NCBI RefSeq assembly: GCF_003568845.1
Contig: NZ_CP030126.1
Span: 1,019,001-1,083,000 of the forward strand
DNA from: Indioceanicola profundi
GTDB taxonomy: Bacteria; Pseudomonadota; Alphaproteobacteria; Azospirillales; Azospirillaceae
Reading direction: 5' to 3'
Length of the DNA stretch: 64,000 nt
Part shown: positions 2,850-7,248 of the stretch, piece by piece
How the letters are laid out: every line of letters begins with the position of its first letter
Position numbering within the stretch: the first letter of the stretch is position 1
Translations under genes and position numbers: made by a program
Notes under the pieces: generated by a model
The model's database searches: none
What the model was told of the DNA's origin: nothing
What the model saw: only the letters and a program-made list of their open reading frames with translations

Positions 2850-2973
2850 GCAGCCAATGGCACCCCGCACACCGTAAGTGGTGGCACCCGTGGGGTCACA
2901 AGGTGCCCGGCTGCCGCAGAAAAGCCCAAGGCAAGCCGGTCAGGGCGCGGACTATACCACAGCGGGAGCCTTT

Positions 2974-3711
2974 GTGTTCAAGCGTCTTCGCGAAGAGATA
3001 GATGCAGTCATCGCCCGTGACCCTGCCGCCCGCTCTCGGCTGGAGGTCGTTCTCTGCTATCCAGGCCTTCACGCCATTCTTCTGCACAGGCTTGCGCACC
3101 GTCTCTGGACGGGCGGCTGGCACCTGTCGGGGCGCTGGATATCGCATCTTGCCCGCTGGCTGACTGGAATCGAAATTCATCCCGGCGCCACGATCGGACG
3201 CAACTTCTTCATTGATCACGGCATGGGCGTCGTGATCGGGGAGACGGCGGTAATCGGCAGCAACGTGATGCTGTACCATCAGGTGACGCTGGGCGGCACC
3301 TCGCTGGAAAAGGGCAAGCGCCACCCGACCGTCGGGAATGACGTCATCATCGGCGCCGGGGCCAAAGTGCTGGGCAACATCACCATCGGAACGGGAGCCC
3401 GCGTCGGGTCGAACGCGGTCGTGGTGTCCGACGTTGCGCCGGGCGTCACCGTGGTCGGCATCCCAGCAAAGGTCGTGGTGCCGCGCGACCGGGTACAGGC
3501 GCAGCCCTTCATGGCGTATGGAACACCCTGCGGGGACTTGCCGGATCCAGTGGCAAGGGCCATGTCGGGCCTGCTGGATCAGGTGCATGCGCTCCGCCAG
3601 CGCGTGGAAGAACTGGAGCGGACCGGCAATCCTGTGGAGGGAAGCCCGGTCGCGCTCGAGAAGGGCGACGAAGATCGCCATATGCAAACAGAAACGACGG
3701 GAGCGGCCTGA
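2974..3711 (+). CDS. cysE: Serine O-acetyltransferase
   Basis: Acetylates L-serine with acetyl-CoA to O-acetylserine, the committed step of cysteine synthesis. The chosen GTG start gives 245 aa beginning [10 protein letters not shown] and has a GGGAG ribosome binding site. The frame is open upstream to a GTG at 2878, but that extension has no ribosome binding site and does not look like CysE. The N-terminal helical region is followed by left-handed beta-helix hexapeptide repeats ([36 protein letters not shown]). An extra C-terminal tail of about 60 residues is predicted helical. Its place directly before the iscR-like gene and the cysteine desulfurase puts cysteine supply beside sulfur mobilisation. 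Confidence 0.93.
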
Positions 3712-3774: not shown

Positions 3775-4245
3775 TTGAGACTGAGCACGAAAGGCCGCTA
3801 TGCCGTCATGGCCATGGTCGACCTCGCGAGGCACAGCAACGGATATCCTGTTCCCCTGGGGGAGATCGCCGACCGGCAGGAGATTTCCCTGTCCTATCTT
3901 GAGCAGCTTTTCGCAAGGCTGCGCAGGAACGGGCTGGTGAGCAGCGTGCGCGGACCCGGCGGGGGCTATCTGCTGGCCCGGCCAGCGGAGGAGACCTGCA
4001 TCGCCGATATCGTCATGGCCGTGGACGGGCCGGTAGGCACCGCATCCTTTGGAACGGGCGCAATGGATGGCGCGCAGCCCATCAGGACCTGCCCTTTGAC
4101 CCATGATCTCTGGCTGGAACTGGACAATCAGGTCCACAGCTATCTCAGTTCCGTAACCCTGGCCGACGTCATCGAACGCCGTATCCTGGCCACCAATGCC
4201 ATGGTGGTGCAGGAGGAGACGCGGGTTGCAATGACGGCGGAGTGA
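3775..4245 (+). CDS. iscR: Rrf2/IscR-family regulator with atypical Fe-S ligands
   Basis: A 156-aa winged-helix regulator of the Rrf2 family, starting with TTG (3775) behind a GGAGG site. The N-terminus MRLSTKGRYAVMAMVDLA and the wing SSVRGPGGGYLLARP are typical of IscR, which represses Fe-S assembly genes when it carries a [2Fe-2S] cluster. E. coli IscR uses C92, C98 and C104 plus H107. Here the aligned segment keeps only the last cysteine (C106) and the histidine (H110 in PLTH); the first two positions are non-cysteine. Another cysteine, C75, lies just after the wing. The cluster is therefore either bound in a different way or absent. Its position before a cysteine desulfurase supports control of this block. 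Confidence 0.9.
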   Translation: MRLSTKGRYAVMAMVDLARHSNGYPVPLGEIADRQEISLSYLEQLFARLRRNGLVSSVRGPGGGYLLARPAEETCIADIVMAVDGPVGTASFGTGAMDGAQPIRTCPLTHDLWLELDNQVHSYLSSVTLADVIERRILATNAMVVQEETRVAMTAE

Positions 4246-4255
4246 TGGCCCGAAC

Positions 4256-5365
4256 GTGAACGGTATCTACCTGGACTGGAATGCGACGGCGCCGCTCCGG
4301 CCGGAGGCAAGGGCGGCGCTGATCGCTTGCATGGAGGAGGTCGGAAATCCGTCCTCCGTCCACGGCTTCGGCCGTGCCGCCCGCCGCCGGGTGGAGGATG
4401 CGCGCGAAGCAGTGGCGCGCCTTGCGGGAGCTACGTCTGCGGACGTGATATTCACCGGCAGCGGAACGGAGGCGAACAATCTGGCCCTGCGGGTAAAAGG
4501 CAGGGCGCGGTTGATCGTTTCGGCTACGGAACATGCCGCTGTTCTGGACGCCGCTTCGGATGCTGAGGTGGTTCCTGTCGGTCCCAAGGGGCTCGTCGAT
4601 CTGGAGGCGCTGGAGCGAGTGCTGGCGGCGGACAGCGGGCCGGCACTGGTCAGCATCCAGGCGGTAAACAACGAGACCGGCGTGATCCAGCCTCTGGCGG
4701 AGGTGGTGCGCATCGCCAAGGCCCAGGGCGCACTGGTGCATAGCGATGCCGTTCAGGCGGTGGGGCGCATTCCCTTCGACATGGGCGCTCTCGGCCTCGA
4801 TATGGCGACCCTGTCCGCCCACAAGATCGGCGGGCCGCAGGGCGTGGGCGCGCTGGTGGCGAGACCGGGGCTCATGCTGGACCCGCTCCTTCGTGGCGGT
4901 GGGCAGGAACGGCGAATACGCGCCGGGACGGAGAATGTGGCCGGTATCGCAGCCTTCGGGGCCGCCGCCGCCGCGGCGCTGGAGGGGTTGGATAATTATA
5001 CCCGACTGGCCGTGCTCCGCGACGGTCTGGAGGAACGGGTCCGCGAAGCCGCGCCGGATGCGGTGATCTTCGGGGCCGATGCCCCGCGGGTGGCGAATAC
5101 GAGCTGCATAGCGCTGCCGGGTCTGACGGCGGAGACCCAGCTGATGGCCTTCGATCTCGCCGGGATCGCGGTCAGCAGCGGTGCTGCCTGTTCCAGCGGA
5201 AAGGTGCGGGCATCCCATGTGCTGACCGCCATGGGCGCCCCGGTGGAACTGGCAGGATCGGCGATCCGGGTCAGCCTTGGCTGGAGCAGCACCTCGGAAG
5301 AGGTCGACCGCTTCATTCAGGCGTGGGTCCGGCAGTACGGCCGATCCCGAGATCGCCGCGCATGA
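4256..5365 (+). CDS. Cysteine desulfurase (NifS/IscS-like)
   Basis: A PLP enzyme that removes sulfur from cysteine as an enzyme persulfide for Fe-S cluster or thio-nucleoside synthesis. It has 369 aa with a GTG start 10 bp after the iscR-like stop, so the two are probably co-transcribed. The PLP lysine is K190 in LSAHKIGGPQG. The persulfide cysteine is C312 in SSGAACSSGK, in the longer loop typical of class I (IscS/NifS) enzymes. IscS proteins are usually about 400 aa, and this shorter form resembles the desulfurases found next to iscR in alphaproteobacteria. No scaffold gene (iscU or sufB) follows, so the sulfur acceptor is not shown here. Confidence 0.93.
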   Translation: MNGIYLDWNATAPLRPEARAALIACMEEVGNPSSVHGFGRAARRRVEDAREAVARLAGATSADVIFTGSGTEANNLALRVKGRARLIVSATEHAAVLDAASDAEVVPVGPKGLVDLEALERVLAADSGPALVSIQAVNNETGVIQPLAEVVRIAKAQGALVHSDAVQAVGRIPFDMGALGLDMATLSAHKIGGPQGVGALVARPGLMLDPLLRGGGQERRIRAGTENVAGIAAFGAAAAAALEGLDNYTRLAVLRDGLEERVREAAPDAVIFGADAPRVANTSCIALPGLTAETQLMAFDLAGIAVSSGAACSSGKVRASHVLTAMGAPVELAGSAIRVSLGWSSTSEEVDRFIQAWVRQYGRSRDRRA

Positions 5366-5479: not shown

Positions 5480-6118
5480 ATGACCGACTCGAACGACACG
5501 AAATCCGGCCCCCGGCGGGGGGAAACGATCAGCGGAGGCATGAACAGCTGCTGGTTCTGCGCCAAACCGGTCAGCCCGCAGGCGCTGTTCTGCCATAGCT
5601 GCGGGAGTCTGCAGCCGCCGCCGGATGTGGATGCGTTCACCCGCCTGCGTCTGCCCGCCCGATTCGACATCGATCAGGCGGATCTGGAGCGGCAGGCGGC
5701 CGGCTTCACCCGTATCCTGGACCCGGCCCGTCTGGAAAAGCGCGGCACTATGGAAAGGACCATGGCCGAGCGGCATCGCGCCGCCATCGCCGACGCCCAT
5801 GCCGAGCTGCGCGATCCCTTGCGGCGGGCAAGATTGCTGCTGGAGAAAGCCGACCGGTATCTACCGGACATCGAAGCGGATGCCGGGCCATGGCGGGAGG
5901 AGTTCTCCCTGGCGCTGGACGCGACGGCCGTGGATCGCATCGCCGCCCGGTTGCAGGGCGAGATGGAGGCGGCCCTACGTGATCTCGCCGCTGCTTTCCG
6001 CGCCGACGATCTGGACCGCGCGGAGAAGCTTGTGCGGCATGTGGAGGCGCTGTCGCTGGCCGTCATGGAGGGGAGAGTACGCCGGAGCGAGTTGCTGGCC
6101 GGCAGTCCCGGCTTCTGA
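5480..6118 (+). CDS. HscB-like J-domain protein lacking the HPD motif
   Basis: A 212-aa protein with the architecture of HscB, the co-chaperone that brings IscU to the Hsp70 HscA. An N-terminal CxxC...CxxC knuckle is seen at C24/C27 and C38/C41, as in eukaryotic and some bacterial HscB. The J-like region begins at LPARFDID and has the HscB-type sequence [16 protein letters not shown], followed by a C-terminal helical domain. Ungapped alignment from the LPAR motif to E. coli HscB places D81-P82-A83 where HPD should be. HPD is needed to stimulate Hsp70 ATPase, so the canonical activity should be lost. No hscA follows; the ferredoxin gene is 110 bp downstream. Confidence 0.85.
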
Positions 6119-6228: not shown

Positions 6229-6543
6229 ATGCCGAAGATGGTTTTCGTTGAGACGGACGGTACCCGCCGTGAAGTGGACGCGCCCCTGGGTCTGTCGATC
6301 CTGGAAGTTGCGCGCCGGCATGACATCGATCTGGAAGGGGCGTGCGAGGGCTCGCTGGCCTGCTCCACCTGCCATGTGATCGTGGACCCGCAATGGTATG
6401 ACGTGCTGCCCGACGCCAGCGAGGATGAGGAGGACATGCTGGACCTGGCATTCGGCCTGACCAAGACCTCGCGCCTGGGCTGCCAGATCCGCATCACCGA
6501 GGAGATGGACGGCCTGACCGTGCGTCTGCCCGGCGGGGCCTGA
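6229..6543 (+). CDS. fdx: [2Fe-2S] ferredoxin, Isc/adrenodoxin type
   Basis: A 104-aa plant/adrenodoxin-fold ferredoxin that passes electrons in Fe-S assembly or other redox pathways. The four cluster ligands are C39, C45, C48 and C85, in the CX5CX2C...C spacing of the Isc/adrenodoxin group. The acidic stretch [13 protein letters not shown] before the last cysteine is the usual partner-docking region. It follows the HscB-like gene and precedes tenA by 3 bp. In standard isc operons fdx comes directly after hscA; here hscA is missing. Confidence 0.94.
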
Positions 6544-6546
6544 TCG

Positions 6547-7248
6547 ATGGGCGGCGCTCCGCTGCCGGATCTCGCTGTGCCGGGCGGCTTGTTCGCCCGG
6601 CTGCGGGACGGCGCGCGGGCGTCTTGGGACCGCTATGTGCGCCACCCCTTTGTGGTCGGGCTGGGCGATGGAACGCTGCCGGAGGCGGCGTTCCGGCATT
6701 ATCTGGTTCAGGATTACCTGTTCCTCATCCATTTCGCCCGCGCCTATGCGCTGGCCGCGTACAAGGCCGATGATCTCGCCGACATGCGGGCGGCCTCCCG
6801 CTCCATGTCCGCCATCTTGGACCTGGAGATGGGTCTGCATGTTAAGTACTGCGCCCGCTGGGGTGTGGGGGAAGGGGAGATGGCGGCTGCGCCAGAGGCG
6901 CAGGCCACGCTGGCCTACACCCGCTTCGTTCTGGAGCGCGGGATGGCCGGCGACCTGCTCGACCTTCATGTGGCGCTGGCGCCCTGTGTGATCGGCTATG
7001 CGGAGATCGCGGCCAATCTCCTGGCAGATCCGGCAACCCGGCTGGACGGCAATCCCTACCGCGACTGGATCGAGATGTATGCCGATCCCGCTTATCGGGA
7101 AGTGGCGCAGAGTCAGGTTGCGCTGCTGGAACGGTTGAGCGCGCGCCGCGGCGGCAATGCCCGTTTCGACTCGCTGCTGCGTGCCTTCGAGGCGGCCAGC
7201 CGGCTGGAAGCCGGGTTCTGGGACATGGGCCTGTCGCTCGCGGATTGA
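6547..7248 (+). CDS. tenA: TenA-family aminopyrimidine aminohydrolase
   Basis: A 233-aa haem-oxygenase-fold protein of the TenA/thiaminase II family, which salvages the pyrimidine part of degraded thiamine. Family motifs include RHPFVVGLGDGTLP, FRHYLVQDYLFL and the cysteine segment ALAPCVIGYAEI with the likely catalytic Cys. It starts 3 bp after the fdx stop, so it is translationally coupled to the Fe-S block. Thiamine pyrimidine synthesis itself depends on an Fe-S radical SAM enzyme, which may explain the grouping, but this is inference. No TPP riboswitch was seen upstream. A strong bidirectional terminator follows. Confidence 0.88.
   Translation: MGGAPLPDLAVPGGLFARLRDGARASWDRYVRHPFVVGLGDGTLPEAAFRHYLVQDYLFLIHFARAYALAAYKADDLADMRAASRSMSAILDLEMGLHVKYCARWGVGEGEMAAAPEAQATLAYTRFVLERGMAGDLLDLHVALAPCVIGYAEIAANLLADPATRLDGNPYRDWIEMYADPAYREVAQSQVALLERLSARRGGNARFDSLLRAFEAASRLEAGFWDMGLSLAD

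Follow-up and report, generated by a model that had tools for sequence, protein, structure and literature searches.

The HscB-like protein encoded in the 64,000-nucleotide stretch of Indioceanicola profundi DNA analyzed here (the window) carries D81-P82-A83 in place of HPD, a motif treated as invariant in J-domains (PMC9596805), and very probably it can no longer act as an Hsp70 co-chaperone for IscU. The explanation that we favor, and consider reasonably probable, is that it is a J-like protein uncoupled from both Hsp70 and IscU and repurposed after the SUF system replaced ISC. A search of one literature library, by title and opening of the abstract, returned no paper on HPD-less HscB in SUF-only alphaproteobacteria. 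The gene and its surroundings comprise the following features, with profile scores in parentheses:

2878..3711, + strand: serine O-acetyltransferase CysE, start uncertain (TIGR01172 243.4, above 210.65)
3775..4245, + strand: IscR/Rrf2-family regulator (Rrf2 121.7, above cut-off; IscR model 161.7, below 207.55)
4256..5365, + strand: NifS-like cysteine desulfurase, 369 residues (TIGR03402 337.8, below 530.75; Aminotran_5 204, above cut-off)
5480..6118, + strand: HPD-less HscB-like protein, 212 residues, ATG start (profile and structure matches)
5549..5602, + strand: four-cysteine module C24-x2-C27...C38-x2-C41 (Zn_ribbon_3 E 3.5e-5, 23.6 bits, below 27)
5720..5728, + strand: D81-P82-A83 at the HPD position (alignments)
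5885..5911, + strand: shortened first helix of the C-terminal domain (136-144), expected place of L92 and L96 (AlphaFold model, alignment)
6229..6543, + strand: [2Fe-2S] ferredoxin of ISC type, Fdx (TIGR02007 88, below 132.1; Fer2 51.6, above cut-off)
6547-7248, + strand: TenA-type thiaminase II, directly after Fdx (TIGR04306 143.3, above cut-off 130)

The HscB-like protein and its changed motif

Kinship with HscB is indicated by matches to the profiles NF003449 (E 8e-9) and NF002935 (E 2.8e-8), neither of which comes near its curated cut-off (35.9 against 189 bits and 34.5 against 198 bits); the TIGR00714 cut-off is likewise not reached (18.1 against 46.75 bits). HSCB_C gives 21.8 bits on the protein itself, against a cut-off of 22.1, and 24.3 bits, above the cut-off, in the genome-wide search, in which this is the sole HSCB_C match of the genome. 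The closest solved structure by sequence is human HSCB (3bvo, E 3.1e-11), and in the alignments to 3bvo, 4it5 and E. coli 1fpo the residues DPA lie under HPD, gap-free around the motif; a joint alignment sets D81-P82-A83 opposite H32-P33-D34 of E. coli HscB. A shifted, intact HPD is ruled out, because the tripeptide occurs nowhere in the full 212-residue translation.

The AlphaFold model of the protein (pLDDT 90.9, pTM 0.82) has the HscB fold, a J-like domain plus a C-terminal helical domain, and matches human HSCB 3bvo over 184 aligned residues in the span 22-207 (Z 19.4, rmsd 2.5; Foldseek E 8.1e-9) and E. coli 1fpo over 157 (Z 15.6, rmsd 2.2). Helix II of the model stops at residue 79, D81 being the second residue beyond it; in the model of an HPD-bearing homologue from Dongia helix II stops at 74 and H76-P77-D78, the invariant motif, begins at the equivalent place. 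Predicted model and alignment together give a J fold with a changed HPD, and on this point, as on the resulting loss of the Hsp70-stimulating motif, the earlier sequence-only reading of the window is borne out. It had also described the N-terminal cysteines and the rest of the J-like region as intact. Both pairs, C24-x2-C27 and C38-x2-C41, are indeed present, and the core of the J-like region is kept, but N104 and Q77, and in Azospirillaceae also Y73, are mostly replaced in HPD-less proteins (the usual residues occur in 97%, 92% and 94% of HPD proteins, respectively).

Distribution of HPD, hscA and iscU

The homologue search covered 99 relatives, 59 genomes of Azospirillaceae among them. A homologue is present in 54 of these 59 family genomes and HPD is missing in all 54 (53 were motif-scored in the locus table, and the 54th, L091, reads LAPARF); HPD loss is a family trait of the Azospirillaceae homologues. 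The commonest forms are DPE, APE, APA and DPA, with the proline mostly retained, and the genera concerned are Azospirillum (Azospirillum brasilense included), Nitrospirillum, Niveispirillum, Skermanella and Oleisolibacter. One stop codon is marked in each of three family matches (G022, G041 and G011), and the plasmid collection yielded no match. The homologues L057 (G011) and L059 (G050) are short forms of about 135 residues, which end near window residue 120, have no C-terminal domain and read AGD and TGD at the HPD position.

Outside the family, HPD is also missing in five genomes of four other families (G172, G275, G438, G158 and G363), and named metagenome-assembled genomes (MAGs), two of them titled Micavibrio, are placed beside those five in the tree, so that we speak below of two HPD-less lineages. 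L205, titled Roseomonas, is HPD-less as well. L256, a MAG titled Azospirillum sp., has HPD and a full isc operon, and both trees described below put it with other ISC records; its Azospirillum label is probably wrong. In the class sample 115 genomes had a match; the HPD counts leave aside 21 of these, all weak (none above 74.2 bits).

Scored over 143 loci, HPD occurs together with HscA in 79 and without HscA in the stretch in six, whereas the HPD-less form occurs with HscA in none and without HscA or IscU in 58. Split the other way, HPD is kept in 79 of the 79 loci that have hscA, and 58 of the 59 loci with neither hscA nor iscU are HPD-less, the one HPD-keeper (L160, from G379) having its hscA on another contig. 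Among 79 named loci, judged from the fetched stretch, 62 are HPD-less, all without HscA and IscU, and 17 have HPD, 16 of them with HscA. Some genomes belong to both sets (G032 and Oleisolibacter albus are one such case), so their counts are neither independent nor additive; the 143-locus set omits L091 and the named set, scoring 79 of 80, omits L227, the frames, each on a contig of 41,467 bases, being assigned to the fused NifS-like part. As for the six HPD loci without HscA in the stretch, three of the genomes (G359, G379 and G163) have an HscA above the cut-off on another contig and two (G077 and G064) have candidates under it; the sixth is G208. L248 has HPD and IscU, with no HscA within its 11.6-kb stretch. 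The expectation that in related species HPD loss coincides with loss of hscA was thus upheld, with HscA accompanying the HPD-less form in 0 of 58 and 0 of 62 loci of the overlapping sets.

The absence of hscA from the locus, which the sequence-only reading had remarked on, extends to whole genomes. The window genome has one full-length Hsp70, which is DnaK-like (929.6 bits, in a 641-residue frame) and reaches 631.6 bits against the HscA model TIGR01991, for which the cut-off is 708.55, and is therefore not a dedicated HscA by this measure. An HscA elsewhere in the genome is ruled out at this cut-off, the matches beside DnaK being short and at most 45 bits. Whole-genome searches found HscA above the curated cut-off in 0 of 59 Azospirillaceae genomes and in none of G172, G275, G438, G158 and G363, compared with 57 of the 385 genomes of the class sample. 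A second Hsp70, at about 350-410 bits to the HscA model and so far under its cut-off, is present in several Azospirillaceae (for example, G001, G008, G013 and G028). Nor was an IscU-type scaffold found in the window genome, where the sole NifU_N match (83.4 bits) lies inside the suf cluster, compared with about 170-185 bits for IscU-type matches in ISC genomes; four of the five genomes of other families have only NifU_N matches of 81-87 bits, and G158 has none.

The trees, built from sequence, fit a single origin of the HPD-less form. A quick HscB tree of 117 rows, computed after masking the letters of the HPD motif, unites the 41 HPD-less rows in a single clade (SH-aLRT 100); the masking was limited to those letters, and a relaxed constraint on the same contacts, if shared by these rows, could group them too. 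A free quick tree of the NifS-like proteins (115 rows) needs four changes; constraining the HPD-less rows to group yields a tree that gains 58 log units over it and is not rejected (p-AU 0.907). We accordingly make no claim of repeated independent HPD losses, given the better constrained NifS-like tree and the one clade of the HscB tree. On this evidence HPD and hscA were probably lost in one old event and not in many independent ones. In the Micavibrio-type records L244 and L245 the upstream order, judged from the first residues of the frames, is that of the window (a frame that starts like the AnmK of the window, a reverse-strand frame that starts like the 2042-2704 gene, and an IscR-like gene).

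IscU contact sites and constraints on the protein

A second proposal of the sequence-only reading, that the protein kept client binding, does not find support, because the IscU hot spots are deleted or replaced and the genome yielded no IscU-type scaffold. In E. coli HscB, replacement of L92, L96 or F153 by alanine is reported to weaken IscU binding more than 20-fold (PMC3040723). These columns are strongly conserved in HPD proteins (n = 102), with L in 96% at L92, M or L in 93% at L96, and Y or F in 95% at F153. In HPD-less rows the L92 column is gapped for 90% of Azospirillaceae (n = 53) and for 100% of the second group (n = 19), the L96 column holds mostly Ala, Thr, Asp, Gly, Lys or Gln, and the F153 column is mostly Arg in Azospirillaceae and Gly in the second group; the groups in these alignments were defined by the motif, so that the 100% against 0% at the His position is by construction, and rows with fewer than 110 aligned residues are left out. 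The window protein itself has a gap, G136 and A190 at the three places, and the helix that would carry L92 and L96 spans 136-144 in its model, as compared with 134-149 in that of the Dongia HPD homologue.

Other parts of the protein are well kept. The four cysteines of the two CxxC pairs are present in 72 of 72 HPD-less rows and in all 81 or 82 HPD rows that reach the module (the remaining 20 or 21 are gapped). Median dN/dS values are 0.29, 0.31, 0.09 and 0.24 in four groups of Azospirillaceae (36, 36, 10 and 6 pairs); five HPD groups, with 1 to 6 pairs apiece, give 0.12-0.27, and pair values in the second HPD-less lineage run from 0.06 to 0.37 (27 of 120 pairs, those with dS below 1.6; many have dS above 1, which makes the ratios rough). 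Constraint on the hscB-like gene is moderate, because in both Azospirillum groups its dN/dS (0.29 and 0.31) lies above that of the NifS-like gene (0.18 and 0.18) and of Fdx (0.12 and 0.07).

In 41 columns the same residue is found at 75% in both HPD-less lineages, and 25 of these fall below that level in HPD proteins, where lower conservation is partly expected, given rows from many families, one in five of them without the N-terminal part. Arginine occupies nine of these 41 columns, whereas the 41 conserved columns of HPD proteins include four Arg and one Lys. More telling than such counts are positions at which the HPD-less proteins have a residue different from the usual HPD one, namely R61 (86 and 84% in the two lineages; Ser in 21% of HPD proteins), Q72 (92 and 84%; Arg 28%), A74 (81 and 68%; Phe 61%) and R174 (86 and 100%; Ala 52%), although residues common to the two lineages could reflect common descent alone. 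Given purifying selection, the kept cysteines and these distinct conserved residues, the HPD-less protein has constraints of its own and is not simply a decaying copy.

This bears on the reading of the gene as a relic that is still being lost and has no function of its own, which we regard as improbable. Its absence from the five family genomes in which it was not found (one of which, G045, is an assembly of 860 contigs), its shortening in two others, the scatter of the His position over D, A, S, T, N, E and L, and a dN/dS above that of its neighbors in two of four groups would all suit such a relic; the low ratios just given (medians of 0.09-0.31), the invariant cysteines, the 41 columns conserved in both lineages and the retention of the gene by two well-separated lineages argue against it. 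Slightly less probable still is that the protein has stayed a partner of DnaK, perhaps a weak or inhibitory one of J-like type, by means of a loop that departs from the standard form. The loop does keep its PxR (P82 in 94 and 89%, R84 in 100 and 100% of the two lineages), and a DnaK-like Hsp70 is present in the window genome, but the H and D of the motif are gone, N104 and Q77 are mostly lost, and seven different residues at the His position argue against a new fixed contact.

Pam16 regulates Pam18 by pairing, and plastid J-like proteins are further examples with a changed HPD. Pam16 and trypanosome Pam18 share with the window protein a J fold, a changed HPD and a presumed inability to stimulate Hsp70 (PMC11349236), and, by the same account, some J-like proteins with changed HPD are thought to be Hsp70-independent. 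Pairing of the HPD-less protein with another J-protein to restrain it, after the manner of Pam16, would fit this precedent, but no other J-protein was identified in the stretches looked at, and we think this quite improbable and the least favored of the readings considered. The changed-HPD examples are eukaryotic, whereas the window protein derives from bacterial HscB and has a four-cysteine module, its loss of HPD being accompanied by that of its own Hsp70 and client.

Neighboring genes, the SUF background and candidate partners

The gene order cysE-iscR-nifS-like-hscB-like-fdx occurs in the window and in many relatives, others retaining fewer of these genes (Fdx, for example, is missing from the stretch in Niveispirillum and in most of the second HPD-less group), and HPD-less loci look like an isc operon from which iscS-iscU-iscA and hscA have been removed. 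Compared with four-cysteine HscB/Hsc20 proteins (human HSCB 3bvo and alphaproteobacterial HscB), the window protein has the same whole-length predicted fold, four-cysteine module, J-like core and C-terminal helices, and the same isc-derived operon place between desulfurase and Fdx; it differs in having neither HPD nor the IscU hot spots, and in belonging to a SUF genome in which no HscA or IscU-type scaffold was found. IscR binds a [2Fe-2S] cluster through three cysteines, two of which are missing from the window regulator at 3775-4245, the third being shifted by one. Degeneration of IscR is not a general part of the HPD-less pattern, as the full set of three is present in 64 of 69 HPD-less loci and in 78 of 78 HPD loci; the five exceptions are the window, the Micavibrio records L244 and L252, L238 and L245.

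SufB/D was found in all 18 genomes tested of the HPD-less lineages (13 Azospirillaceae, five of them without the hscB-like gene, and five other HPD-less genomes) and in neither of two ISC genomes; the window genome has a suf cluster with SufS-like, IscU-related and IscA-related frames. SUF is the sole shared Fe-S machinery among those tested (in these 18 genomes, with G439-G443 outside the set). Four of the five family genomes without the hscB-like gene have two SufB/D matches each; therefore, SUF does not need the HscB-like protein. That ISC is missing from most other Alphaproteobacteria with SUF has already been published, in a paper that, as described there, set HscB aside because it formed no clear group (PMC10631705).

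The neighboring NifS-like gene suggests another reading, in which the HscB-like protein would be a dedicated adaptor or brake of that desulfurase, much as in E. coli, where HscB is reported to attach to IscS, chiefly by its C-terminal stem and at the site of Fdx and frataxin, and to lower desulfuration (PMC5037179). The likeness lies in the position of HscB beside a desulfurase and Fdx; the difference is that the window encodes a NifS-like desulfurase in place of IscS, and that some carriers yielded no such gene. A NifS-like gene lies directly upstream in 105 of the 115 HPD-less loci with at least 1.3 kb of upstream DNA, and the single HPD-less clade of the HscB tree is not rejected by the NifS-like data. 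In one Niveispirillum MAG (L266 and L227, on a 41,467-base contig) NifS-like and HPD-less HscB parts are fused in one 679-residue frame, where comparison with relatives shows that a stop codon was lost and one base gained at the junction. G024 has neither the HscB-like gene nor a close NifS-like one, its best match resembling the IscS reference more closely and having IscU- and IscA-like frames next to it.

Against such a dedicated partner, all seven second-lineage genomes tested (G172, G275 and G439-G443) keep the HscB-like protein and none yielded a NifS-like desulfurase; their desulfurase matches are at most SufS-level (77-96 bits, with none in the possibly incomplete G443), as compared with 651, 456 and 440 bits for the NifS-like match in G000, G015 and G020 (in the last two it lies elsewhere in the genome, away from the HscB-like gene). 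Conversely, the family genomes G003, G008 and G010 keep NifS-like and Fdx without HscB-like, the residues reported to face IscS give no clear sign of specific conservation in HPD-less rows, and the fusion is confined to one MAG contig. These seven carriers speak against a universal tie to the NifS-like protein, and we consider the adaptor reading unlikely overall. The second-lineage loci L244, L245, L252, L224, L220 and L148 have an HPD-less HscB with no NifS-like or Fdx gene in the stretch. At L267 (G003) a second desulfurase lies between NifS-like and Fdx, in the slot of the HscB-like gene; it scores higher against the IscS reference (380 bits) than against NifS-like (182 bits).

Because the HscB-like protein persists without NifS-like and NifS-like without it, the NifS-like desulfurase is a less likely partner than something that all carriers have in common. 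Returning to a J-like protein uncoupled from Hsp70 and IscU, we infer an order of events in which SUF replaced ISC in an ancestor that would have lost iscU, iscA, iscS and hscA and kept HscB. Freed from HscA, the protein would have lost the H and D of HPD, and freed from IscU, its L92/L96/F153 grip. Its present role may be that of an Hsp70-independent binding protein, with the putative metal-holding four-cysteine module and the J-like core as the working surface and with a partner that most probably belongs to SUF-based handling of sulfur and clusters; the adjoining NifS-like desulfurase would be a likely extra or original partner in Azospirillaceae. More tentatively, we suggest as a possible fuller account that this HscB subfamily was freed from Hsp70 and client in one step at the transition from ISC to SUF, and was repurposed as a four-cysteine J-like protein with a new partner that has persisted in two lineages even without an adjoining desulfurase.

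The HPD-less proteins are a bacterial co-chaperone family that lost HPD together with its own Hsp70 and client and yet is under selection, and they offer a testable case of what a co-chaperone does once its chaperone is removed. An HPD-less HscB may also serve as a marker of the switch from ISC to SUF, and labeling such genes as HscB would leave a false trace of ISC in SUF genomes.
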